Both the position numbers and the translations under genes were made by a program. From Oidiodendron maius Zn (taxonomy: Eukaryota; Ascomycota; Leotiomycetes; Myxotrichaceae), in the NCBI GenBank assembly GCA_000827325.1, contig KN832894.1, positions 186,001 to 250,000 on the forward strand: a stretch of DNA of 64,000 bases, written 5' to 3'. The notes under the pieces were generated by a model. It had not been told where the DNA came from, did no database searches, and saw nothing but the letters and a program-made list of their open reading frames with translations. Below, piece by piece: positions 33,143-64,000 of the stretch (position 1 is the stretch's first letter; each line of letters begins with the position of its first letter).

Positions 33143-35208
33143 TTAAATACCAGTATCTACCTCAATACAGTCAATCACATCGCTCTCAATAAGTGATATA
33201 GCTGCAGTTGCAGCATCCACTAGACTATCTGGCTGATATATTGAGGCCAGGCTACGCATATAAACCCTCTCCCTCTCAGTTCCAGCAATATACATATCCT
33301 GGTGGCCGTTCTGAAGCCGAACTAGCCCTGAATTGACGATATAAAGAGGCTCCTGTGGCGTACTTAGGGCAGGAGGGGCTGAACTAGAAGGGATCTCAAA
33401 GGCAGAAGGCTCTTGGCGTGTACTAGTAGGCTGTATAACACCACCTAATGCACCGCGTGGGCGTCCTCGACCCTGAACTGGCAGAGGGTTCAAGACTGGC
33501 AAAGGGTATGATATGGACTGCTCAGAAAGAGTACCTGGTTCTGGCCTAGTAATGTGCCAATGAGGGTGTATATCTTCAAGCCGAATCACACTGACTTCTT
33601 GCCTTCTTTCCTAGATTGTATGGTAGCATGGCAACCCAATTGACTGCTGAATTGAGCAGCTACAGCTAGAAGGAGGCGGCCCACTCTTAGGAAGCTTTGT
33701 ATACTCCTTAGCTAGTTTCTGGAGCGCGTAGCTATGAACCTTCTGTAATATAGCTGTAAAGAGAGGGATATTAATACCATGTTTTGGCCGAATCTGCTGC
33801 TAAGCAAGCTCTGATTGAAGCGTAGCGTATTGAGCGTTCCAGAAGTTCTTGAGCCTACTAAATACACCTCTAAGATCACCGTGGCCACGCTGAAGGTAGC
33901 TCTTAAGCGTTGCATGGCAGCCCTCAATTGGACTAGTTACAGTGATCCCGAAGTGGAGGCGGCAGTTGATATAGCAGGCAACTAGAGCCTCCTTCCATAT
34001 TAGCCAGGTATCTGTACAATATTTCATTGCAGCTGTAGGGTATTTAGCCTGCATTTCTGACAACTGCTGGAGGTATATTGACTCCGAGAGGCTACTAAGG
34101 AGCCTGTTCCAGCTGCTTAAAAACTCCTGAAACTGAGGGTGTCGTACAAGTTGGCCATTAACCCGCGTCGGACCTGGAAAATATTGCTTTGTTTTAGCCA
34201 ATACATTTATATTGATATGCCAGCGGCAAAGGAGGTGCTGAGAGGAAGGGAACCATGTATTTAGGCTCTTTATTAAAGCTAGCTCTCGATCTGTAACGAT
34301 TGATACTGGCTCTTCAATCGAGTTTTGAACCATTATATTATATATATAATCAAGAGCCCAGTTGTAGTCTGCCTCTGTCTCATGTCTCAAAAAGACTAGC
34401 CCAATCTGAACCACCTTATTAGCACCAGTAATTGCACAAATATTCAGTAGGGCCATGTTGAATCGGTTTGTTTTGTATGTACAATCAAGGAGTAAGACAT
34501 CAGGGTGCTGCTTCTAAAGGCAAACGGCAGTGGGGTGTATAAAGGCTAGTCGTTCTAGAGGGCCGCTTTGAGGGAAGTGTTTAGGCTGGAAGTCGGTGGT
34601 TTCAAGCTCCTTTATAGGGTATATAGGTTAGTAAAGTAGTTAAAAGGGTATAGATATCTTATATCCAAGAGCCACTGGATTGGAGTCCTTCCATTCAATT
34701 CAGTAAGCCTAGCTTCCTGTATAATGTTGCTAATATCCTTTACAATAAGGGGTATTTCAGGTGTTGTATTCCGGAGAATTGTTAGGATTTGACTGGGGTT
34801 TAGACCTGACTGTGATAAGATATCGATCTGAGCACGAACTTCTGTTGTAAGGGCACTGTTCCTATGCACTGAATGGGCTGTAACGTGTGTTGCTGCAACG
34901 TGGTTATGTGCTCCCTCAAGCACCTTAAGTATCCAGTTACCTGAGAGGTAGTCTAATCGTAATTCTACCATCATTAAGCACCCGCACTTCTTTGAGCCAG
35001 TAAATACACGTTGTTTTGACTTATGTACAGCTGGATCCCTGCCCTTTGCATCATATTGACCTGCACGATCACAAGTAAATACAATCCTAGAGCCCTTTTT
35101 ATCACGCTTCTTGAACGCGTATCCTTGGTCTTTTGCGTGTGCCTGAATCGTGGTAAAGGCAGCCTCTGGATCAGGGTAAATAGCTTCAGGTGGTGGTAAA
35201 AGAGCCAT
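33143..35208 (-). pseudogene. MULE transposase with FAR1-like, MULE and SWIM domains, interrupted
   Basis: The start chosen is MALLPPPEAIYPDPEAAF at 35208, just inside the right terminal repeat. Domains in order: a FAR1/WRKY-GCM1-like finger (FTCDRAGQY, KKCGCLMMVEL, VLEGAHNHVA); the MULE catalytic domain (DVLLLDCTYKTNRFN, NICAITGANKVVQIGLV, VSIVTDRELALIKSL, HLLCRWHININVLAK, SPIEGCHATLKSYL); a SWIM zinc finger (CSCSIQQSIGLPCYH); and a Pro-rich tail ending at 33143. Lesions: a frame discontinuity near 34620, and stops before KQHPDVLL (about 34516), at SELA*QQIR (about 33799) and at CYHTI*ERR (about 33613). Several are TAG codons compatible with RIP. Confidence 0.85.
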
Positions 35209-40287: not shown

Positions 40288-42874
40288 ATGAAGTTATCAA
40301 CTCTATTTCAGCTCTCTCTTTCTGGGGCCTATCTAGCTACCGCATTGCCTTCGAGTCCCCCTCACATCATCCATTTACCCGCTGTCCATGGAAGTGTTAA
40401 CCGCTCGGACGTCAATAATTTGCTAACCGACACTGCGGTGAACTTGTTCTATGCTGAGCAAGCACCTAGCACCTCATGTATGCTTTTATCTTCCCTTCGC
40501 TCGAACCTTTTATACAGGCCTAATATTTGTAGCCACTTTATCTGTCGCCAACGTCACCATTCCCGAACTAGCCTACCCAGCTGTTGTTCTGGAGCATTCG
40601 GATGCTATTTCCGGCCTTTCTTGCTCTGCCAATTCGTTGACAATCACCTTCAATAGCAACGTCGCATTTGATGCTGCCCGAGTGGATTGGACGAAGTTGT
40701 CAGAATTTGTTCTTGTTACCTACAGTCCTAATTGTGGAGAAGCTGCCTCCACTGGAGCTAGAGATTATATCCTAGTTTCTTCAGTTAGCTTCACCGAGTC
40801 CACGCTGAGCGCCACAGCAAATATCACTCCAATAAATTTCCAACAGTTTGTGAGTGCCACAAACAATGTCACGGTAACAACTGGTCGCTTCACACCCATA
40901 AGCTCGAACAGCACCGGAAGACAGTTTCCTGCTAGCTACCGCCTTAATAGCGACTTAGCGGGCACCGTCATATCTTCCTCCAATTCCTCCAATTCTACAA
41001 ACTCAACCATTGACTTCGATGTCGCACTGGACGAAGCAATTGGATTTCTCAATCTTGAGAATTCATCTTTCTGGCCTCAGCTCTTCCCGGGAACCACTGG
41101 CGAGAATTTCTCTCCTCCCGCTAGCGACCAAAATGGATCATTCTTAATCTCAGACACCAAGAAACGACAGATACGTTCTCGACGACCTATAGAGAAGCGC
41201 TGTGATTGGTACGACATCATCTGTGGGGTTGAATCCGCGTATGAATTTGTTGCGGGCAAAATTACTGGCATATTCGACGGTATTATAGGGACTATCACCA
41301 CCGTTTTTAATCAGATTATCGTGGATGGCGTCGAGCAAGCGGCCGAGACTGTTATTGAGGGATTTTATATGATAAACTCATGGACATCTTACACCTTTAC
41401 TCCAATCGATGATACATTCAATTTTTCCACTCCTGTAGGAACTGCTACCACAGCGTGGGGTCCGGCAACCAAATTGTTTTCCCAGCAAGTCAGCGCTGGC
41501 TCTATCGCTATTTATTGTGTTGGCTGTGGTGTTGCGGGGAATATCGATGTCCAGGTAACACTAACATTCTCCCTTTTCGAAGGAATTACTTCTGGAAGCA
41601 TCAGTGCGGACGGCCCCATCGTTGCGGCAGTACAGCTAGGAGTTGTAGCAACTTTAGAGCAAAGCTGGGATTACGAACAAGAAATCGCCAGTCTCCCCCT
41701 TTCCACATTTGCAATCCCCGGCGTTCTCACCATCGGGCCTGAAATTACTCTTTCAGCAGGAGGTAACCTAACAGTAGCTGCTGAAGGAGGCTTACTCGCT
41801 GGCGTGTTACTTAATTGGACTGATATCTCCGCAAACATCAATTTGGGTAATATTGGCAGTTCTAGTGCAAGTGGCTTCTCACCCAACGTGTCACCTAATT
41901 TCGCTGTGGAAGGGACCATTTCAAGCACAGCAGAACTTTTTTTGATGTTGAGTCTCGAATTCGGAATCGACATCCTACAAGGCGCCATCAAGAAAACGGT
42001 TGCCCTGATAGAACAACCACAACTTTCTGTTACCGCCTCGGCCAGTACCCAAGTTTCCTCGGGTGGTACGAGCACCAGCTGTACTGGAGTCGAATTGACG
42101 GCAATCTTCACTAACTTGGTCTATGCCGATATCTTCGGATTAACCGAGATTAATATCAATACGGTAACAGCTCCTCTAATCTCTGAGTGTGTACAAATTA
42201 CCCAGAAACGTAGTCTATTATACCCAAGGCAGGGCGACGGTGGTGAGCTTCCGGCAGCGCCTGGCGGTGTCATCGAGGTCAACCCTAACGGAACGTTTAT
42301 TTCACCCACGTACTCTGTGATGGACTCGGTTGATGGTGTTCTCCAGCTTCACTACGGGGCTAATGGCAATCTGTATCCTGTCCCGTCAAACATCTCAACT
42401 GGGGAAGGAGTGGACAACACTATCCTCTTTGCTACCCTTAACACAACCATCATCGGAGACTCCCAGGGTCGTCTTTTTCATGGCTACGTGGACACTTTGG
42501 AGGAGCTAGAAGTGTCGCGGTTCCGACTCGCCAACCTAACCGAGATTCCAAGTACATCTGTGATGATGTACGCCGATTTTAACTCTCCCGTATTATGCCA
42601 AGCGAGAAGTGATAACTAACTTTTTCCTTTTAGATTCCTCGCCCCAGCCAATGTGACCAACGCCACCACTACCGTCATGATAGCATCTGATACTGCCGGT
42701 AACACCTACTACCCGATTACTTGTTTATACGAGACTTTGCCGCCTAAAATGTTTTTGGCTAGAGACCCCGCAGCAGGCGCTGCTATTCTGGAGGACACAG
42801 ATAATATCCCAACTCTAACGGGGGGCCAAGTGACCCAATGTTACTATATCCCATTTACTGCAGATTTCGCTTGA
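40288..42874 (+). CDS. Large secreted glycoprotein (DUF7029/DUF7223-like), 821 aa
   Basis: Three exons, 40288-40477, 40533-42567 and 42634-42874, sum to 821 codons. The second intron uses a GTACGC donor, chosen because it alone keeps frame with FLAPANVTNATTT. Signal peptide: MKLSTLFQLSLSGAYLATALP. The N-terminal half is rich in NxS/T sites. A dibasic stretch (RRPIEKR) lies before CDWYDIICGVESAYEFVAG at about residue 287, a plausible Kex2 cleavage site. The following part (AIYCVGCGVAGNIDVQVTL, ITSGSISADGPIVAAVQLG) is beta-rich. A second KR lies in TQKRSLLYPRQ. Architecture resembles fungal secreted proteins with DUF7029 and DUF7223; function unknown, probably cell surface or extracellular. Confidence 0.8.
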
Positions 42875-51463: not shown

Positions 51464-53310
51464 ATTAGCAAGCTTATTTCGGAGATGCTCCTAAGTGATT
51501 CAGAAGGATTGGTATCCGAAATTTTCGCAAGGGTCTCCACCGCATCTTTATACCTTTTCTAGAGTACAAGCCGGGGAGTACAAGCCGCGGAGTACAATCA
51601 GCTTGCTGATGAGAACTTACAGAAGTTAAACACCCGACACACTATACCCCCTAATACCCGAATCGTTCATGTTGGAGAATTAGGCTAATTTAACAGGTGC
51701 CTTCCCTTAAGATACTACGGGGTGTAAGGTCTGATTAGCGTCTAGTGAAATCATACGGTACTTGGGGGTGGAATAAGCCTCGGGGGATCGGGGTAATTAA
51801 TAAAATATAATACACAGCACTACTGAAGTCACTGGCAGTGGGCTGATTTATACTCTAAGTACCTCGGTGATAGAGCCGCGGCAATCATCTCATGTAGCCA
51901 TTTAAATCGTGAACTTAGCCAACCAAAAGGAGTCAATTACGAGGTAATCGCCTGCCCAGAAAGATTAGAAAATTAGAGTTAGAAGGCGATGCATGACGTA
52001 AAAGAGTGAGTGCATAGCGCGCGCGACATTAATTAAACCCTTGGTGCTGTTATGTAAAATTAGTGCTGCTGACCTTTCGGAGCAGATAAAAGGGGGCTTT
52101 ACAGGGCAGCAGCAATACAACAATTCATGATTGGCTCAATACACGTATACTGCAACAGATGGCCTTCCCCGCATCCCCCGCACCCTCCTCGCCCCCGCCC
52201 CCGCTACAGGGCGTAATAGTCTCGGAGAATCGGACTAATTCTAAATCAGTCCCTTTTAAGGCACGATTTTTCTTTCTTTTTATCAAATAAACCATTGTGT
52301 TACGCCTGAGACAACTACTCTGAGGCAGGGAGTTAATACTATGTTTGAAGATTTTCGCGTGTTTTTCCGGTCTTTTCATCAACTGCGGCGCTCACGGTGC
52401 GGGAAGCCTGTTTCGCAACTGTGTTTCTAAGGCACGGATCATCAATCATAAGAGAATGGGGAGGTGGACAGGCGGAAATATCCAGCGGTTGGAGGGCAGC
52501 ATAGGTTCAGCGACAAACAAGAGCGTGTGTGGGATCGAGGTGTCGGTTTATCATTGTTCACGTAGATAAAGAAAAGGAAGCCTCTATAATAAGAAATTGA
52601 TTGCTCTTCCTCTCTTTAGTGCTGTAATTGAGACTGGGCGTTCTTGTGCGCTTCACCCCGAATCTGCCTCGCCCCTCATTTCTCCTCGCACTACCTAAAG
52701 AGAAATCTCCATCATTCCATGCCACTACTGTCCCTAACCCTCGGTGGAAACTACGTAAAGGTGGAGCACTATATGAGTAAGGTCAAGATAGCGTTGGGAT
52801 CGGTTGCATTGTGGCTCGGTTCGGAATTGTAATTAAGATGGGTATTAAGTAGCTGCCGTATGCCGAGATACATTGGGGAATGGAACGCGGCCTTGCGTAA
52901 ATCCGGTTCCTTGTCTCAAACTTTGTTGAACAGTCGATTGAAGTAAGAAAATAAGCCTATACCGATGCTGAAATGCATATTTAAATTATTGGAGAGTTAG
53001 AGTTGAACGGGTAGCGGGAAAGGGGTGCCGGAATTATTGTCCTATATCGACGTACAGACGGTCTGTTGCAGTATACTCTGTACCAATAAATACTACCGAA
53101 ATTAAGATTTTACACCACCAATACCTAAATCCTCTAACCTCTGATATATCTGGAACTCATCTTAGGCTCGTCTGAATTCCTAGTGTTGCTACAATTCACA
53201 ACACGGCCCGTCTGATACTATAAACCTCTGGTACAAAATAGTGACAAGACATCGAGACTTCAAGTTTCTAAAATATCTGCTTCATATCGTTCAGCTCCCG
53301 CTCCAGAGCT
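51464..53310. other. Intergenic; left border of the intact gene block
   Basis: No gene recognised. A strongly C-rich tract at about 52163-52203 (ccccgc/ccctcc) and a short gcgcgcgac at 52018 are the only marked features. The 85-codon frame opposite the C-rich tract looks spurious. Confidence 0.4.
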
Positions 53311-54428
53311 ATGCCACGACCGACTTACGATTCTCTACCTTTGCGCTCTGGCGACCCGCCATGCTCAGCGTGGGGTCTGTACGGTACCGATGACCAGCTA
53401 GGGACTCTAAATCTTCTCAGCCCCGAAGTTGTGGCTGAAGCGGCAAAAGAAATCCGCACAGGTGCCCGTGTGGGACTAAATCTGCCTGTTGGCTATCTTG
53501 TGGAGCCAACGCATGGCCGACTTGGGCTCAAACACACCGTGTTACCCTCCAAGGGAGCAATTGCAATACATGACGATGTAATTGAACTGAACACACAGGT
53601 GAGCTTACTGCATTTTTGAGGCGTGAAAAATATAGCATCATATGGCGAAGCAAAGCTGATTGGTAATTCAGTGCTCGACTCAGTGGGATGGACTCCGTCA
53701 CGTTGGATATCGGAAATCGGGTCTATTCTATAATGGGGCGACCAAGGATCAGATCTCCGGCGCGAATACCACCCCCATTCTAGGGATACATTGTAAGTTA
53801 ATCCTCCGCTTGAAATTCGAAGGGTCTTTTTCAGTAGACAATATCTGAGAAGCTTGTAGCGTGGTGTGAAAAGGGTATCGCCGGCCGCGGCATCCTTCTT
53901 GATTATCTGCGCTGGAGTCAAGAGCAGAATCAAAAGTACGACGTACTTAAAGGCCATGCTATAACAGTGGAAGAGTTGCAAGCCTGCGCTAAAGCTCAAA
54001 ACATTGTCCCTAGAGAAGGTGACATTTTGTTCGTAAGAACGGGTTTCAAAGTGGGATACGCGGCTTTGAGTAAGGAAGAGAAGACTGAATGGGCACGCAA
54101 CAGCCCCACTTTATGGACTGGAATTGAAACGTCAGAAAAGACAGCGAGGTGGCTGTGGGATACAGGTTTTGCTGCCTGCGCAGGGGACCAGCCGGGCTGG
54201 GAAGCCTTTCCCATTTGGACGACGCCGGACGTTGGTGGACTAGGAGAACTGAGTCTACACGAGGTGATGTTGGGAGGGTGGGGAATGCCTATCGGCGAAT
54301 TTTTTGACCTTGAACAGCTTAGTGAGGAGTGTGCAAAACAGGGAAGATATTCATTCTTTGTTACGAGTATGCCATTAAACATCCTTGGGGGTGTAGGCAC
54401 TCCTCCTAACGCTTTAGCTATCTTCTAA
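53311..54428 (+). CDS. Cyclase-family (PF04199) metal-dependent hydrolase, copy 1, 325 aa
   Basis: Three exons, 53311-53598, 53672-53792 and 53860-54428, sum to 325 codons. The acceptor at 53859 was fixed by comparison with the paralogue at 60034-61192. Landmarks: LPLRSGDPPCSAWGLYG, DDQLGTLNLLSPEVV, HDDVIELNTQ, the metal-site region CSTQWDGLRHVGY (residues 97-109), GIAGRGILLDYLRW, GDILFVRTGFKVGY, GFAACAGDQPGWE, LHEVMLGGWGMPIGE and LGGVGTPPNALAIF. The family includes kynurenine formamidase and isatin hydrolase: zinc or manganese amidases/lactonases. Cytosolic; no signal peptide. Its 3' end faces the regulator gene 42 bp away. Exact substrate unknown. Confidence 0.85.
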
Positions 54429-54470
54429 ACTCGGTAGGCATAAGCATAGAGTTTTGACTGTAAATGGCAC

Positions 54471-56953
54471 TCAAAACATAATATCGAAATTTTCCATCTC
54501 AAACACCGGCAAAAATTGATCTCCATCCCAGACGCCTCCAGAAAGAGTATCATACATCATCTCCTCAGGACCTCCGTTGAATTCGTACGGCCTGGCTCCT
54601 TCATAATCAAGCCCAAAGGTCTTTCCCACCAACGTAGCATCATTTTGTAAAGCACCATCAGTCTCATCTATTAGACCCTTGGCAAGAATCTTCCTATTCG
54701 CCGCATCCACGATTCGTCTCAGCTGCATCAGCACCCGTCTTGCAAATGTGTATCCGGGTGCGATCTCTTGGAGCAACGATAGAGCTTTCCGAAAAGCTCG
54801 CCCGGCGCGGAGTCTTAGATCATTACCAGTGTCGTTGTCGTCTTTGATAATGATGCAAGTTAGAGGAATTATGGCCCCGGAGAGGTAGATAACCGAAGAA
54901 TACCGATCCGTTCGTTGATGAAATGGTGAGGTATGGAAGGCATGGATGGCGTCGATAGAAGATGTTGTAATAGCAACGCAGGCCTCGGCTTCACGAGGAT
55001 GGTATTTGAGATTCAGCATCTCCTTGCGACGGAGAAGAAGCCGTAAATGATTAGTTCTCTATCAAATTAGTGTTTGCAGTAATGACAATGTCCAGTGTGA
55101 ATCATCAGTGAATACGCACGAGATGTATTACTACAGCTTGTCGAAGTACATATAACGGATATCTTCTAATATCTGCCGAGTCCAGATAAGTGGGCGTCCA
55201 TTGCAAGTCGGGTGGCAGATCATGGACGAGTAACATTATCCGTGCATCCATAGTGGCCACGAACTCTTGGTTCGTCAGATTAGAGGCATTCATGCCGAAC
55301 ATCGTATCCCATATCTCAGAACATAACTTGGCCCATTTGATAGTTCTGTGTAAATATGGTATTGAGGAGGAATCTGGATCTGAGGATGGTTGGCTAATCA
55401 AGACATCTGTCCCATCCATAGAGTGTGGCAAGTCGACCTTGAAGTTGGACTCTCGAATTAGAAATGGTACTCCGCACACAAGAGCTACGTTACGGTCCAG
55501 ACAATAAAGACACCAGAAAATCCGTTGCCTCATTGTGACGTCGAACGAGCTGCTGTTAAGCCATGACGTTTGATCGTGTAGACCAATCTGATACGTTAAT
55601 CTGACAGCTGTGCTGATTGCATCGTAGGCTGCGTTCTGCCTCTCAATGAACAAAAAGTAAATTGTTTTGAGGATGAGACATTGAATGGTGAGCAGATTCC
55701 CGCGGCCTAGCCATGTTGTGTGACTTAGTAGGTGCTCTGCCCGGCTAAATTCTTTCCATCCCGGGACAGTCTTCGAATCTACGCAGTACTCTTCTAGTAT
55801 TTTTATCACAGCCACAATGAGACTTACAAGAGCCACGAACTGACGCGAATCCACATTGTCTGATGCGACTGGGTCTTCCGCTAGGTAACTTTCGAAGCGT
55901 GAGTTAAAATAAGGCTCGTGAAGACAGAGATCTGAAATGCTCTGTCAGTGAGCCTCCGATTCCAAGTTTGAGTCACTTACAATGAGGATTCAGACAGTTG
56001 AAAAACTTGCGGAATGAAGCGCGGAGGATTTCTAAGTCCTGTGATCTTGTTCCTTCGTTCCATAGCTGTAAATCGCCTATACAGCAACTGGGAAAGCTTC
56101 TACAATTATTGAACCGACACCCAACTTCCGGCTGCTGGCTGCTTTGAGGGATAATGTTGCACTGCTCACCGGATGGGCCGATAACTCGGTCCAATATTGA
56201 TATTGCGTTCAACAAGTCGGTTCCTCCTTGGAATTTCGGACCCGCATGATCCAGGTCTGTAAATCCTTCTTCACTCGAAAAGAATGACGAGACGTCACTA
56301 TGGCCTGTGGTTTTTAGCATCAAACTAAAGATAAAATGGTTTAAGATGCCCGTCAACCCTAATAAACTTTAACCCACATCGTTCTGAATCATTAAGCCTC
56401 TGCTCAAGCCTTGTAATCCGTGCACCGAGGTCTAGTGTCCATCGTGGCTCATTCTCGTGCGACAGCGGCCGAGTTGCGTGATATGATGTGACATCTGCAA
56501 CAGATTCACTTGATATAGATTCGTGACTATTGTCGGATTAGCCGAAATGCGATCCTCTAGGTCATCAATCTCACTTTTGAGCTTGCTCCTCTGGTATTTC
56601 AGAATGCGGGGCGTTGCTTCGCCTGCGCCTTCTAAAACGTCCAGTACTATAAATGCAATCCCCTCCAGTATTGCGGCATTGTAGGCAAGGCCGTTCTCCC
56701 GTGCACTGAGGATGCCATCAATGTTTCGTTTCATAGTGCCTAATGGAGACTTGTACTAACTTTGGTTTTGCGCTTTCGGCAGTCCAAGCTAGACCGTAGG
56801 AGGTTAACAAATTCAAATTCGTATTCGAACTGAGATGAGTGTAGCTCACCATGCACGTGAAACGTAGCTATTTCTTTTGGGGGCTAGAGAAATGGCCGCT
56901 GATCGCCGCTGGTCGTCCGTATGTGTTGTCGATGCAACCAGAGCAGTATCCAT
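54471..56953 (-). CDS. Zn2Cys6 transcription factor with fungal-specific domain, 721 aa, seven exons
   Basis: Exons 56953-56850, 56788-56761, 56705-56575, 56526-56368, 56324-55981, 55931-55120 and 55058-54471 sum to 721 codons. The zinc cluster is spread over three exons, the middle only 28 bp: C35-LD-C38-RKRKTK-C45-TGERP-C51-LQ-C54-RNTGGD-C61, followed by a basic RFRRRRRSN. The first Cys codon itself is split by an intron. A short leucine-rich coiled segment follows (GARITRLEQRLNDSE), then the PF04082 regulatory domain (SAEHLL-type repeats, YQIGLHDQTSW, QRIFWCLYCLDRNVALVCGVPF, KWAKLCSEIWD). Start MDTALVAS at 56953 is the first in-frame ATG. It lies inside the enzyme block and is the natural candidate for its pathway-specific activator. 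Confidence 0.88.
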
Positions 56954-57598
56954 AATGCGAGAGAATATGAGCAACTCTTGGTCTGGGATTCATGGACTCT
57001 GATCTGGTTAATTTTTCCCGGATGACATGAATTTTAATCCCAGAGGCACCAGGTGCGGGGTACACAGGGTGTCCGTGGAGATTAGGTGGGATTTAACAGC
57101 ACATTGGCAGGCTCCAACCGAGGCACATCCGGCACCCGGTAGCCAACCAGCCATCCAGAAGTATTTAATCTCCAAGAACCATAGCTTCGAGATCTTGTAT
57201 ACAAATAGTAGATTCTGTACATGGACGAGAATATCATGTTAGTGGTGTACTTCCAATATGTCGATAAAAGCTTTCGGGTATGGTGACTGGAACGGGGTAT
57301 GGTGACTGGAACGAATACCGCTCTTTTACGATTATGTCTCCACTGAGCCTGCCGCTAGAATGAAATCCTGCTGCTGGCTATAATTGGCCCCTTTCAACCA
57401 CAAAGTGCTCTCCAGTCAGTGCTAATTTCTGCTTTCGTTAAACTAGTTTGTTATTTATTGTCTGATATGCAAGATTATACTTGTTCCTCTCATTCTCTCT
57501 CTCTCTTCTCGCCCACTAGCATGCTGGGATATCCATCTTGTGCGGATGCCATATTTCGACTATGCAAAGCCGACTTTTCTGCCCTTTGCCCACCCATT
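56954..57598. other. Spacer upstream of the regulator, downstream of the bicupin
   Basis: It contains the regulator's promoter. An 18-base direct repeat, gggtatggtgactggaac, occurs twice in tandem at about 57277-57314. Nothing else recognised. Confidence 0.45.
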
Positions 57599-58486
57599 CT
57601 ATACAGCCTGCGGCTTTTCGTGGATCCACATAATGTAAACCGGTTCGTCGCCATGATTCCTGATCGTCCTGGGACTTTCAGCGGGTAAATAAAGAGCATC
57701 AAGTCGACCGAGTTCCTCGTTCCCATTACCAACGTCGACAAGAGCCTTCCCCCGCATGATTATATAGAGCTCAGCGCTGGTACCACTCTTCGAGACCTGC
57801 TTCTGTGCAGGGAGGATAACCATCAATCCCATGAAAATTTGATCGCTAGGCGCAGCGTGCTCGGGGTTGAAGTTAGTAAAGCCCTGTTTTCCACCAACCC
57901 AATTCAAAAGCCAATGCAGGTGTCCCGGCTCCTTCACGTTCGGTCCAGTCCATCTAGGTTCCAAATCGTTGAATTTAATAACAGAAATGTCGCTCGTCTG
58001 AGGCACCGTAATTTTTTCTTCCATGGTATAATAAACTGTAGTGCCTTTTTTCTCTATCTGATCATGCAGCCAGATAACCTCTACCTCTTCCGTACCATAA
58101 GTTCTCACCCCATGCGGCACACCGGCTGGGATGTATATACAGTCCATAGGTCCGGCAATATGTTCTTCGTGTTTGCCATCCCATCCAAGGACCTGTCCTT
58201 TCAATATAACATATATTTCAGTGACACTGTGGTAATGGAGACCTCGTTGTCGGTTGCCAACGTCTAAGTACATTAGGCCAACCGACATCTCTTGACTGAG
58301 GGCTGCATAACCAGGATTGGAATTCACATATCCATCAGGTCCTGCAACCCACTGCGTGAGCCACCGCATCATTCCAGGCTGTTGGTGAGGCAAATGCCAT
58401 GATGGAGCAAGTTCGTTGAAACGTATTACACTGGCGCCTGAAGCTTCTGTCTTTGCGTGGCCGTTGTTGATCTTTAACTGGGACAT
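57599..58486 (-). CDS. Bicupin protein, 295 aa
   Basis: One exon, no introns seen. Two cupin domains in tandem: residues about 17-140 and 160-290, each opening with the same phrase (SVIRFNELAPSW and SVIKFNDLEPRW) and GxxHWL/RWLTQW. The first cupin keeps metal ligands, GLHYHSVTEIYVILKG (H84, H86, E90) and PAGVPHGVRTYG (H125). The second (SAELYIIMRGKALVDVG, LPAESPRTIRNHG) has lost two His ligands and is probably structural. Such proteins can be dioxygenases, isomerases or decarboxylases of small acids. Likely cytosolic. It sits about 650 bp from the regulator and 590 bp from the dehydrogenase, as expected for a pathway member. Confidence 0.85.
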   Translation of the reverse strand: MSQLKINNGHAKTEASGASVIRFNELAPSWHLPHQQPGMMRWLTQWVAGPDGYVNSNPGYAALSQEMSVGLMYLDVGNRQRGLHYHSVTEIYVILKGQVLGWDGKHEEHIAGPMDCIYIPAGVPHGVRTYGTEEVEVIWLHDQIEKKGTTVYYTMEEKITVPQTSDISVIKFNDLEPRWTGPNVKEPGHLHWLLNWVGGKQGFTNFNPEHAAPSDQIFMGLMVILPAQKQVSKSGTSAELYIIMRGKALVDVGNGNEELGRLDALYLPAESPRTIRNHGDEPVYIMWIHEKPQAV

Positions 58487-59077
58487 GATGACAGGCAGAG
58501 GCCGTAATGAATAGATTTGAATATGTAACGTTGTTCCAGAGGCAAGCTACCGAAGCTATCTTGAGAGAACCAGAGGAGATCAATATAGAAGAATACTGAC
58601 ACCTAAGATGAACAGTCAAAAAAAGCAAATAAGCACCACCATATTCCTCCACATCCCTTCTATGTACGTTTGACTTCCATATCGACCGAGATCAGTCAGT
58701 ACGTAAGGAAGTGAGTTCCATTATCTCTAATTCCGTGAGTTTATTCCGTGATTACATCCGCAAATCTGTATACACCCCACCTTCGGCTAGAATGGAGTTG
58801 TGTAATTAAAGCGCACATCAGCGAGTTGAGATGGAGGTTCGGGAATGGATAAGATACGGCCCGATTTCCGGTACTCTGAACTTCGTAAATCAATTCAAAA
58901 GCATCTTGGCCTAGAGGGGCAGGCCCCATCCTTCCTGTCTCAAAAACCAGGAATTTCTGCACATTCTAGACATTTTTAATCGCCTCTATAGAGAAATATC
59001 CTTTGCATTGACACGAAAGATGAATTAAACATTCTACAAGCAAAGCAGCGCCACTTTGTCTTCAATTTGTTGATACA
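58487..59077. promoter_or_regulatory. Divergent promoter region between bicupin and dehydrogenase
   Basis: A 591-bp non-coding stretch between two genes reading away from each other. It must hold both promoters. I see no certain TATA box or regulator site; CGG-type half sites would be worth listing by computation. Confidence 0.5.
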
Positions 59078-59894
59078 ATGACCTCTCAACACCCCTTTGC
59101 AGGGAAAGTGATTGCTATAACAGGGGCTGCATCTGGCATCGGGCTTGAAACGGCCCACTACCTGGCACATCGAGGTGCATCACTGTCTCTCGCCGACGTT
59201 CAGCAGAAGGAGCTTTTAGAAGCTGAAACTACTATTAAGAAGGAATTGATCCCCAACGCCAAAGTTCTTGCGAGACTTGTGGATGTCCGGAGCAATTCGG
59301 AAGTAGAGGAATGGACTGCACAAACCATCAAGGAATTTGGGAAGCTTGATGGCGCAGCCAATCTAGCGGGTGTCTTTATTGAGCCCGCAACTGGTATCAA
59401 GGGCATCGATGATAATATCTGGGAGTCCGTTCTGGCAATCAACTTAACAGGACTAATGCACTGCCTGCGGGCGCAGCTCAAGGTGATATCAAGAGGGGGG
59501 AGCATTGTCACAGCGTCCAGTGTCGCTGGATTAGTTGGAAGCAGTCAATATCCAGCATATACAACTAGTAAGCATGGAGTTATTGGATTGACGAAGTGTG
59601 CGGCAAGAGAGATGGGTGACGCGGAAGTGAGAGTCAATTGTATCTGCCCGTAGGTACCACCCGCATCATACTGCAAGCTGTACTGGGGCTAAAGCAATGA
59701 GCAGAGGCAGAATCGAGACCCCGATGATGGCAAAGGCTGCGACACTTAGCACAGCCGCATTTCCTTCTGAGAGATGTATCAAGAGGCCTGGGATGCCCAA
59801 TGACGTCTCTTCTTTAATCGCGTTTCTTCTTGGAGATGAAAGTCGATTCATTACAGGCTCTGTTTACCAAGTGGACGGTGGCCGTCTATGCTGA
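59078..59894 (+). CDS. Short-chain dehydrogenase/reductase, 253 aa
   Basis: Two exons, 59078-59649 and 59705-59894, sum to 253 codons; the joint makes NCICPGRIETPM, as expected. Classical SDR: cofactor motif TGAASGIG at 15-22, ADVQ at the acidic cofactor-choice position (D40, favouring NAD(H)), NLAG at about 95-98, N122 in LAINLTG, catalytic S147/S148 (TASSVAG), Y161 and K165 (YTTSKHG). It ends FITGSVYQVDGGRLC. Cytosolic. It would oxidise or reduce an alcohol/ketone in the pathway. Its 3' end lies 139 bp from the end of the second cyclase gene. Confidence 0.9.
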
Positions 59895-60033
59895 TTGATC
59901 AGGTTTTGAAATGCAAAAGTTTATTGGCATTGACATAATCTCTGTAGTTTTGTCTGTTGTGAAGATAACAGCATGCCAAATCGTAGCCAATTCTGCCCCA
60001 TCCATCTGCAGGTATCTCTTTTTGTGCCCCAAA

Positions 60034-61192
60034 TTAGAATACTGCAACCGCATTTCCTGGGCTTCCTACTCCGCCAGGAATATTCAAAGGCATGCTCATC
60101 AACAAGAATGTATGCCGTCCTTGACGTATGCATTCCTCGCTCAATCTCTCAAGGTCAAACATCTCCCCTGCAGGAAATGGGACAGTTAGGATTAAGCAGA
60201 TTTATAACAGGGGGGGATTTTTTCCATACCAATTGGCATTCCCCAACCATTCAACATGATCTCGTGGAGACACATGTTCTCGATACCTCCCAACTCCCTC
60301 TCCCGCGGCGGGGCAGGGAATCTCTCCCATGCTGGGGCGTCTCCAGCACAAGCGCTGAAGCCGGTCTCCCAAAGCCATCTAAGAGTCTCCACCGATGTTT
60401 TTACCCCCACGTAGCGGACCGGATTTGCAACGCCCCAGACTGCCTTTTCCTGATCGTTCATTGCATCAAACCCCACTTTCCAGCCGGATCGCACAAAGAG
60501 AATATCGCCCTGTTTGAAGGTGACCTGCTGGGCCTCTGCGCACGCTTTCAAATCTTCCACATCAATTGCATAGTCTCCAATCAACTCGTAATCCCTGCCT
60601 ACCGAACGGCTCCATCTATAATAATCAAGCAATACCCCTCGACCAACAATGCCTTGCCTGCACCATGCTGTCAAGACATCAGTTGGGGTCATGATTGAGA
60701 TATTAATCCTGCTTACCATGCGTTCCTAACTTTGTCGTCGGGTTCGACCCAGAGATTTCGTCCACCGTGACTCCATTGTAGAACAGCTCTGATTCTTGAT
60801 ATCCGTAATGTCGAAACCCATCCCATTGAGTAGAGATCTTACTCAAATGAGCCCAAGTCCTCTAATAATGCGGCAGGGAGTCTTAAATGTACCTGGGTAT
60901 TCATTTCAATCACATCGTCGTGAACTGCATTCTTGCCCTGCCGAATCACCTTGTGAATCAGCTTTTGACGGCTATGCGAAGGCTCTGCAATATAATTAAT
61001 AGGCAGATCCAATCCGATCCGCACACCTGTGCGAACTTCTCGGGCAGCTTCAGTTACGACTTCTGGCGTCAAGAGATTTAGACTCCCTAGCTCATCATCC
61101 GGGCCGTATAAGCCCCATGCCGAGAACGGAGGATCTCCCATTCGTAGGGGCAATGCCTCAAAGGCTGGTCGCTTTCTGTATATTACAGTCAT
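60034..61192 (-). CDS. Cyclase-family (PF04199) metal-dependent hydrolase, copy 2, 330 aa
   Basis: Four exons, 61192-60893, 60837-60717, 60667-60230 and 60167-60034, sum to 330 codons. Introns 1 and 2 are at the same places and phases as in copy 1; intron 3 (60168-60229), just after GWGMPIG, is extra. Landmarks: LPLRMGDPPFSAWGLYG, HDDVIEMNTQ, ISTQWDGFRHYGY (residues 101-113), GIVGRGVLLDYYRW, GDILFVRSGWKVGF, GFSACAGDAPAWE, LHEIMLNGWGMPIG and PLNIPGGVGSPGNAVAVF. Clearly paralogous to copy 1 but well diverged, so not a recent duplicate. The two may hydrolyse successive or related intermediates. The first acceptor is AAG, less usual but the only one keeping frame. Confidence 0.88.
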
Positions 61193-61828
61193 GATCGATG
61201 TCGTGACTTGAATTCACCAGATGTCGCAGAAATGTTAAGAGGACTATTTCTCTTGATAGGTGTAAATATTGACCCCAAACGCGAGAGGGGAGCAAGCCAA
61301 GGGGTAAGGACCGGAGCTTGAAGGCGCGGAATTTCTAAGACCAAGCTAGTACTCTGCTATAGAGATGAGGGGTAATGGGGGAGTAAAGGTATTGGATTAG
61401 CGACGCGATTAGTTGCCACCATTTTATGATAAGGTTCATGACTATCAATGTCCTCAGAGAGGCAGAAAAACTATACATGCTCTCCCGAACTCGGATCCCG
61501 GGATGGGAGATTCCGAAGCAATGACAATTAGGCGAACAATGTCAATTCCCGTGAAGAGCGTTATCCCCTTCTCCTGCGAGGTGCATCTCACGTAGCAGCC
61601 AAGTCGCAAATTTCTTGCACTGTATGTGAGCATGCATCCTAAGGCTACGGACTACGAGTTAAGCGGAAATGCGGCACACGGAATTAGTACCTGGAGGCAA
61701 GCTGGCGGAACTGAGCTGATCATCCTAGGCACGTGTTTGAATAACCACAGTACTGCTATTCGCAAATAATGTTCTTCAATTCGCAGTAACTTGAAGTAAC
61801 AAAAAGAGAGCGAGCGAGGAAACAGAAA
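61193..61828. promoter_or_regulatory. Divergent promoter region, cyclase copy 2 and CMD-like gene
   Basis: 636 bp without coding content between two genes reading outward. Contains acgcgagagggga near 61279 and aactcggatcccggga near 61489, GC-richer than the rest. A shared bidirectional promoter is plausible for co-regulated cluster genes. Confidence 0.5.
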
Positions 61829-62846
61829 ATGACTCCACCCACCAGCCAAGAAGCGACTTTAGGTGTTCGCTCAACACTTGATTTAAAAGAGCCGATTCAG
61901 ATCATGTTTAAAGAAGCCCGTGATGCAACTCCAAAGTCTCTGGCAGACGACAGCTGGTACCTTATCGTGGTGCGTACATTCAGACAATAATATCCCACAG
62001 ACGTTGCCGTTCAACTTGGTGGCACAGAGGGTGGTTCTTCTTTTCATATATAGTCCTACTACCTTTCTAATATTGCCAACATTCTTAGGCCGCAACGCTA
62101 CTCTCAACAGATGGTGGTTCCCACTTTGGTGAGCTCTTCCAATATATACTGCAAGCCCAAGACAACCATTCCACGCCCGAGTCCCGCAAACGCGCCTCCC
62201 GCCGCCTTCGTGAAGTCTTAGGGAAGGGCTGGACGCTGACAGGTATTCCGAGGGCGTGTGACGCGCATTTCTCACTCTCAAGGGTTGAGGGCGAGGATGC
62301 CGATTTGACGACAAGTGATCGGGAGAAGATTGTAGGGGGAGTGAATGGGAAAGAGGCGGCGTTGGCACGAACGGATGAATGGTTCAAAAACGTCTTCACG
62401 GGCGCGGACCACAAGCGTATCTGGGCCAGTACTGAGACAAATGTGGATTTAAGTACGTGGTGTTCTTTACTTATGCTCCTGCTACCATTTCTTTTTATTT
62501 CTGTTTACCCCTTCCAGAACCCATCATAGCTGTATAATTACCGTTCTAACGAATTGCGCCCTGGTATGTCACAGCATTCACAATCAAGTATACCGTCTAC
62601 GGCTTGTACTTGTCTGACCTCGCTGTCTTCAACCCCCTTGAGAATGAACTCGTCATGGTATCATGTGTGCTCTCCCAGGGTGGCCGGGTTGCTTCACTAA
62701 GCCATCTGAAAGGCCTGCGCATGCTAGGTGTGAACGCGTCGGATGCAGAGGGGGTGCAGAGGGTAATCGAGATTGTGGCGCAGTGGATGGGAAAGAAGGT
62801 TGATGGATGGGTGCAAGCCAGTGAGGTGGCACATTTCTTTGATTGA
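61829..62846 (+). CDS. Carboxymuconolactone decarboxylase-like (AhpD-fold) protein, 258 aa
   Basis: Three exons, 61829-61969, 62089-62452 and 62575-62846, sum to 258 codons; the introns (119 and 122 bp) are longer than elsewhere. Landmarks: SLADDSWYLIVAATLLS with the joint inside, GGSHFGELFQYILQ, LREVLGKGWTLTGIPRACD, then the CMD helices LSDLAVFNPLENELVMVSCV, GRVASLSHLKGLRMLGV and NASDAEGVQRVIEIV. The CxxC of peroxidase-active AhpD proteins is absent, so a redox role is unlikely. Members act as lactone decarboxylases or have unknown roles. Family call is by helix pattern, moderately sure. Confidence 0.7.
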
Positions 62847-63569
62847 ATGGGTGAATTGCCCCGGATCTACACTGACCGTAGCCGATTGCTGGTGTAGCTT
62901 ACTGTAATTCCGAGTAACGGCCGAACGTCAGTTGCCTTCATTTCGCTTCGCTTCCGTGTAATGGCATCTCTACATCTCCTCTGCATGCCATTGCCCCTTA
63001 GATCACATGAGCTAGGCGGACGGGGAAATGTATTGGGAGTTGACGACTTGATCAAGGCAATATGGTAGGGAAAGCCCAATACTTACGCCGGGTATAGAAA
63101 GTACCGCGTACAGCATACACTTAATTATAACTGAATAATCAACTCCCCCCCTCTTCCGTCCACCGGATCAGATTGGATAAAATCGCCTCCAGACTTAATA
63201 AACGCGCCTTAAGCTGATACAGATGAGCCGTGCCGAACAGATCGTAGCCCTTCCTTACCCGAACTCCATCGAGAATCCGATAATTCAGATTAGGTGCACT
63301 GGCCACGCCTCACACATGCCATTGATCACGCCAGAGTACCCTGAGCTACCGAGTCTCAGACAAACCAATGGGCTCAAGCCTAGTCGTAATTCCGCTCCGA
63401 TGTACCGTGATATAGAGCGCCCCTATATTTTCCGGCGTACTCCGTTGACTGCTCTTATCGTTAGTCAAATATGGCACCTTCGGCGAGATACCAGCCTCAT
63501 CTATTGACAGTTACAAACTGACGAGCAAAGAATTGCGTTCTATTTCGTGTTGAATTCACCCTAGCAATC
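62847..63569. other. Spacer upstream of the flavoprotein gene
   Basis: No gene recognised; it must contain the promoter of the flavoprotein. The plus-strand frame at 63223-63507 has no domain. Confidence 0.4.
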
Positions 63570-64000
63570 ATGTCTACCAACGTTGATCTTCTCGCGACCA
63601 ACGGGACGATGGTAAATGGGGCTATGTCAAATGGGACCTCAATCCCAGTCCCTATGGAAGATAGGCCCAAGGTATACGACTGGCCTACTGAGAATGAAAG
63701 CGGCTACAGGATTAGAGAGGTGCCATCTGGAACCAAATCTTTTAGGAAAATAATTGTGATCGGTGCAGGTGCTTCTGGCCTTGATTTTGCAAAGCACCAA
63801 CAGGATCTGCTCGAGAATGTTGAGACTGTGATATACGAGAAGAACGCGGAGGTCTCGGGCACGTGGATCGAGAATAAATATCCGTGAGCATAACCCTTAA
63901 TTTCTGATCCTTTTTGAAGCACTGACAACGACAATAGTGGCTGTGCCTGTGACATCCCTTCAGTGACTTATCAGTATATCTGGGAGCCCAATATTTGGTC
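63570..64000 (+). CDS. Baeyer-Villiger-type FAD monooxygenase, N-terminal part
   Basis: Exon 1 is 63570-63883; an intron (63884-63937) leads into exon 2, which runs off the window. The N-terminus is a 60-residue extension (NGTMVNGAMSNGTS..., YDWPTENESGYRIRE). Then come the FAD-binding Rossmann motif KIIVIGAGASGLDFAKH, YEKNAEVSGTWIENKYP across the joint, and GCACDIPSVTYQYIWEPN. The pattern W...YPGCACDIP..YQY is the start shared by fungal class B flavin monooxygenases that turn ketones into esters or lactones. The NADPH domain and the BVMO fingerprint lie outside the window, so the subclass is inferred. Rightmost visible member of the block. Confidence 0.85.

Follow-up and report, generated by a model that had tools for sequence, protein, structure and literature searches.

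We analysed a 64,000-nt stretch of the Oidiodendron maius Zn genome, hereafter the window (contig KN832894.1, here C25, positions 186001-250000; the genome comprises 45.9 Mb in 58 contigs), together with 59 kb to its right (123 kb read in total) and 200 kb of control sequence. At the right end of the window, seven adjacent genes encode two PF04199 cyclase-family hydrolases (cyc1 and cyc2), a Zn2Cys6 regulator, a bicupin, a short-chain dehydrogenase (SDR), a 258-aa protein, and a Baeyer-Villiger-type monooxygenase (BVMO). Gene models came from a small splice-aware gene finder whose training data were taken from the same genome, and the seven block genes were then corrected by hand. Positions are given in window coordinates unless prefixed with a contig.

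As a preliminary description of this DNA had stated, the seven genes read cleanly after splicing: each of the seven frames is open from its ATG to its stop codon, and all introns follow the GT..AG rule. The tight spacing it reported was exact on re-measurement, with convergent gaps of 42 and 139 bp and two divergent promoters, which measure 591 and 636 bp. Coding density, as estimated by the simple gene finder, is 0.61 at 53.3-65.8 kb compared to 0.20 at 12-48 kb; five 40-kb control stretches range from 0.33 to 0.52. Pfam backs six of the seven family labels (PF04199 twice, Zn_clus with Fungal_trans, Cupin_2 over two stretches, adh_short, and FMO-like).

The hydrolase gene cyc1 lies at 53311..54428 on the + strand (325 aa; exons 53311-53598, 53672-53792, and 53860-54428) and cyc2 at 60034..61192 on the - strand (330 aa; exons 60893-61192, 60717-60837, 60230-60667, and 60034-60167). 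Their PF04199 scores of 50.7 and 59.3 bits, respectively, are both above the gathering score of 23.1 bits. The cyc2 protein is 59% identical to cyc1, 44% to a draft model on contig C23, and 41% to a draft model on contig C8, and it matches the solved chain 5ibz at 4e-34. The pattern S[TS]QWDx(3)H is common to these four aligned copies and to 5ibz. We also note that the third intron of cyc2, at 60168-60229, has no counterpart in its paralog cyc1.

The BVMO gene (596 aa, 7 exons, + strand) occupies 63570..64000 in the window and ends at 65761, beyond the window edge. A search with an incomplete 567-aa model of the protein returned steroid, phenylacetone, and cyclohexanone monooxygenases as its closest PDB relatives. 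Type I BVMOs carry two GxGxxG motifs and the fingerprint FxGxxxHxxxW[P/D]. Both Rossmann motifs are present here, as GAGASG and GTGASG, and the fingerprint region reads FKGIIAHSASYP. Four of the 29 genomic loci matched by BVMO queries sit on this 392-kb contig, which makes up 0.85% of the genome (C25:167845-169860, 249570-251758, 273429-274906, and 321605-323279).

The regulator gene, at 54471..56953 on the - strand, encodes 711 aa in seven exons (54471-55058, 55120-55931, 55981-56304, 56378-56526, 56575-56705, 56761-56788, and 56850-56953). Its six-cysteine (C6) DNA-binding motif is complete (CLDCRKRKTKCTGERPCLQCRNTGGDC; Zn_clus 32.6 bits) and is accompanied by a Fungal_trans domain. The bicupin gene is intronless (57599..58486, - strand, 295 aa); the N-terminal cupin of the product retains the metal motif HxH...E / PxGxxH, the C-terminal cupin lacks it by eye, and a search of this genome returned the bicupin itself as the sole match. 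The SDR gene lies at 59078..59894 on the + strand (253 aa; exons 59078-59649 and 59705-59894).

The seventh gene, at 61829..62846 on the + strand (exons 61829-61969, 62089-62452, and 62575-62846), encodes the 258-aa protein, which had been labeled as similar to carboxymuconolactone decarboxylase (CMD). This is the one family label that we could not sustain. Neither the whole protein nor its exons 2 and 3 gave a Pfam match at E 10, a setting at which the HMMER filters drop most weak matches, and no solved chain matched at E 1. A PF02627 search of the genome identified seven CMD loci, and the 258-aa gene was not among them. Because the CMD label is unsupported, so is the decarboxylation step that had been proposed along with it. 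Two weak partial matches to the protein occur elsewhere in the genome, on contigs C5 and C3, and structure prediction was of low confidence (mean pLDDT 59.5 for exon 3 and 40.7 for exon 2).

We next consider the five intergenic regions able to hold promoters of the seven genes. The sequence CGGAATTA is the only 8-mer found in four of the five; when five intergenic pieces were drawn at random 3000 times, an 8-mer as rare as this one reached at least four of the five in only two draws. Single copies of CGGAATTA precede cyc1 and lie in the bicupin/SDR and cyc2/258-aa promoters, two copies precede the BVMO gene, and the regulator's own promoter has none. The core was picked without regard to flanking bases; a CGG on the same strand starts 11-15 nt upstream of it at 5/5 block sites, compared to 49/928 sites elsewhere in the genome, an enrichment with a nominal probability of 4e-7 for an offset range chosen afterwards. 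The paired sites are CGG-N11-CGGAATTA at 53015..53036 (+) upstream of cyc1, CGG-N10-CGGAATTA at 58728..58748 (-) in the divergent bicupin/SDR promoter, CGG-N12-CGGAATTA at 61664..61686 (+) in the divergent promoter of cyc2 and the 258-aa gene, and, upstream of the BVMO gene, CGG-N8-CGGAATTA at 62905..62923 (-) and CGG-N10-CGGAATTA at 63387..63407 (-).

Genome-wide there are 54 such paired sites. Five fall within 10.4 kb in the block, none in the remaining ~110 kb of the 123-kb stretch, and none in the 200 kb of control sequence. The block has two of the features expected of a Zn2Cys6 regulon: a complete C6 domain encoded in the cluster and CGG-type sites, here a motif defined post hoc, common to the target promoters. 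As no paired site occurs in the 33.7 kb that follow, the block looks like a Zn2Cys6 regulon of its own, and judged from the sequence its edge is likely the end of the BVMO gene, where the preliminary description had also ended the block.

That description had allowed that more of a biosynthetic cluster might lie to the right of 64 kb. Further genes do continue to ~99.5 kb, and these look catabolic and include no recognizable backbone synthase. The stretch at C25:253146-285483 (window 67146-99483) holds about 15 catabolic-looking genes, several of them draft models. They include an aldehyde dehydrogenase, an MFS transporter of the TRI12 type, a zinc-type dehydrogenase, SDRs, P450s, an NmrA protein, an FAA hydrolase, a second BVMO-like gene, and a LigB family dioxygenase at 81869-82729, outside the motif-defined block. 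An FAD desaturase comes near to KstD and ChcC1 while scoring well short of their cut-offs, and a 159-aa protein gives nothing beyond a SnoaL-like match under the threshold. There is also a second Zn2Cys6 gene, whose complete C6 motif was read in an open piece. The stretch may continue the block or form a catabolic cluster of its own.

If it is a continuation, the seven genes would be the left end of a single large catabolic pathway cluster of about 22 genes at 53.3-99.5 kb, which would also take in the P450s, desaturase, dioxygenase, FAA hydrolase, second BVMO, and transporter. The run begins directly to the right of the block with a coding density of 0.54. It also contains three CGGAATTA cores, at 66337, at 70802 (380 bp upstream of the MFS gene), and at 93166, where the local background predicts 0.37 (P 0.006) and the genome rate 0.69 (P 0.03). 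However, the CGG partner is found at 0/3 of these cores, the paired motif ends at the BVMO gene, the stretch carries a Zn2Cys6 gene of its own, and the LigB, FAA hydrolase, and desaturase families suit a different chemistry. We therefore regard a single large cluster as unlikely. An excess of Gal4-type CGG-N11-CCG sites at 65.8-99.5 kb (11 sites; control 1.3 per 10 kb) was weak once 21 spacings were taken into account, and we dropped it.

The same stretch bears on whether the genes serve biosynthesis, as tailoring enzymes of a secondary-metabolite cluster with its backbone enzyme elsewhere. Such clusters commonly contain BVMOs, SDRs, TRI12-type MFS pumps, and a Zn2Cys6 regulator of their own. 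Yet a crude motif screen of six frames at 53-123 kb revealed no ketosynthase, no non-ribosomal peptide synthetase carrier, and no terpene-synthase NSE motif, and no frame at 62.5-123 kb is longer than 557 aa, so that we consider this explanation quite improbable. The screen did return 17 matches to DDxx[DE], which is a frequent short word.

To place the hydrolase-BVMO pair in the genome as a whole, we located seven PF04199-type hydrolase loci by protein search, six of which were also recovered with the PF04199 profile. Two BVMO queries give 29 loci, and a wider FMO set gives 48. Three of the seven hydrolase loci, namely this block, C8, and C20, have a BVMO-like locus no more than 10 kb from the hydrolase. 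Without this block, the count is 2/6 loci with 1.4% of the genome in reach, a nominal P of 0.003 (0.008 with the wider FMO set) under the assumption of evenly spaced genes, from which fungal genomes depart. In draft models of the C8 locus, the hydrolase is divergent from its BVMO-like neighbor, about 470 bp apart. The C20 BVMO is the best genome match of the block BVMO (46%), and the interval between it and the C20 hydrolase holds, as judged by eye, an SDR, a P450, and an MFS gene. A direct repeat, CGGAATTCGCGGAATTA, is situated 343 bp upstream of the C20 PF04199-type gene (site start to ATG); for six 1-kb promoters, the expected number of N2-12 paired sites is about 0.015. As a separate observation, CGGAA units stand in a row, about 13-14 bp apart, downstream of the C23 PF04199 gene (L028:3268-3351).

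A chance neighborhood of unrelated genes could draw on families that are not rare in this genome, given the seven hydrolase loci and at least 29 BVMO-query loci (48 in the wider set). It is disfavored because the paired rare motif is confined to block genes within the 123 kb and because hydrolase-BVMO neighborhoods recur at C8 and C20. With the shared 8-mer matched in only 2/3000 random sets and the partner CGG at every block site, we consider coincidence highly improbable.

Taken together, we favor, with modest confidence, reading the block as a self-contained catabolic (or detoxifying) regulon specific to one pathway, in which a BVMO acts ahead of ring opening by PF04199 hydrolases. The Zn2Cys6 protein, probably with an inducer, would bind the candidate CGG-N8-12-CGGAATTA sites in the promoters of the other six genes. 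The BVMO would insert oxygen beside a ring ketone to give a lactone, and the two PF04199 hydrolases, members of a metal-dependent family, would open this lactone, and perhaps a second one too, to yield a hydroxy acid. Either ahead of these reactions or following them, the SDR may interconvert alcohol and ketone, and the bicupin, with its one retained metal-binding cupin, and the 258-aa protein may perform or assist a further step. The substrate is probably an alicyclic or terpenoid ketone. The sequence itself shows the intact genes, their families, the common motif with its local limit, and the hydrolase-BVMO neighborhoods at other loci; from these we infer regulator binding, the order of reactions, and catabolism over biosynthesis. 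Of the compact metabolic unit proposed at the outset, with ring oxidation, ring opening, decarboxylation, and redox adjustment, the intact unit with its own regulator is retained and decarboxylation is not.

A broader hypothesis, which we put forward tentatively and hold to be possible rather than probable, is that a PF04199 hydrolase with a Gln-for-His metal site is the standing lactone-opener of fungal BVMOs, replacing the bacterial alpha/beta-hydrolase lactonases, and that the seven genes form a regulon devoted to the breakdown of an alicyclic or terpenoid ketone, with the bicupin and the family-less protein as further enzymes. To our knowledge, genes have been assigned to few of the fungal ring-cleavage pathways that include a Baeyer-Villiger step. 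The block offers a bounded set of seven genes with a regulator of its own, a concrete candidate for the binding site, and a hydrolase-BVMO neighborhood that recurs across three loci. Each gene can be tested in turn, and this would give functions to proteins with poor assignments, namely fungal PF04199 proteins and the family-less 258-aa protein.

Several observations weigh against the proposed regulon and its chemistry. The motif was found by inspecting these same promoters, so its count in the block owes something to how it was chosen. When rarity is not required, some 8-mer is shared by at least four of five regions in 149/3000 and 125/3000 random sets (two runs). Because 49 of the 54 paired sites are scattered elsewhere in the genome, the motif alone is no marker of this regulon. 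With a 5-kb limit, the neighborhood count outside the block drops to only 1/6 loci (P 0.05). The C2, C18, C23, and C32 hydrolase loci have no BVMO-like match within 10 kb, as judged from 10 kb of read sequence for C23 and from match positions only for the other three. The C20 BVMO match contains two in-frame stops, which may be introns or damage, and no paired N2-12-type site was found near it. As for the enzymes, the BVMO has Tyr at the position of Trp in the fingerprint consensus. The metal motif of PF04199 is HxGTHxDxPxH, with metal-binding His in the bacterial family, and in the four aligned copies Gln replaces one His. Finally, lactone hydrolysis can also serve biosynthesis.

The block resembles several known systems in part. 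Bacterial cyclohexanone-type pathways combine a BVMO with a lactonase, the lactone hydrolase being an alpha/beta hydrolase. They share with the proposed pathway the logic of ketone to lactone to hydroxy acid, whereas here a PF04199 hydrolase would open the lactone. In the scheme of Gluck-Thaler and Slot 2018 as presented in passages of PMC10735191 and PMC8120277, fungal degradative gene clusters (DGCs) are similar in being compact oxidative and hydrolytic sets that lack a recognized backbone synthase and probably act on a plant or environmental compound, and a member of the LigB ring-opening dioxygenase family occurs in the 65.8-99.5 kb stretch adjoining the block. In contrast to the DGCs so described, the block is anchored by a BVMO and PF04199 hydrolases and has none of 11 of the 13 core genes, compared by name only; the LigB gene lies beyond its motif-defined edge.

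Grosmannia clavigera, which utilizes the monoterpene limonene with two BVMOs (Wang et al. 2014, as summarized in PMC8120277), likewise provides an example of fungal BVMOs in the breakdown of ring compounds; a PF04199 partner goes unmentioned in that summary, a comparison by description only. The Aspergillus 3-hydroxyanthranilate cluster, in the sections of PMC7842363 that describe it, is a catabolic cluster of Ascomycota with a syntenic BVMO and SDR next to it. It differs in its dioxygenase, decarboxylase, and aldehyde dehydrogenase, none of which Pfam recognizes among the seven genes; an aldehyde dehydrogenase is present in the right-hand stretch. Among the literature matches listed, as far as their text extends, no cluster has this seven-family set, and a published example may still exist.

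Outside this genome, a scan of prokaryotes with the PF04199 alignment identified three loci (L030, L031, and L032). By eye, no BVMO was seen beside L030 and L031, both from Thermomicrobiales. L032 (NYXK01000119.1, labeled as a Deltaproteobacteria metagenome-assembled genome) has a PF04199-type gene that is apparently split by an intron and neighbors that look fungal by eye; it is probably fungal contamination of the bacterial assembly. Two viral-contig scans and a plasmid search returned no relative.

To the left of the block, the stretch at 12-48 kb is gene-poor. The preliminary description called most genes there broken; the interruptions may be damage or introns. Among 10 open-frame pieces taken from the stretch are fragments of a carboxylesterase, an MFS transporter, an alpha/beta hydrolase, and a MULE transposase. 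Repeat-induced point mutation was rejected as the cause of the low gene content, the composite index being negative in 28 of the 32 intervals scored. The MULE transposase domain fragment is located at 33803-34513 (92.4 bits), and a 725-aa open frame at 40442-42616, with DUF7029 and DUF7223, is among the few long frames in this region.

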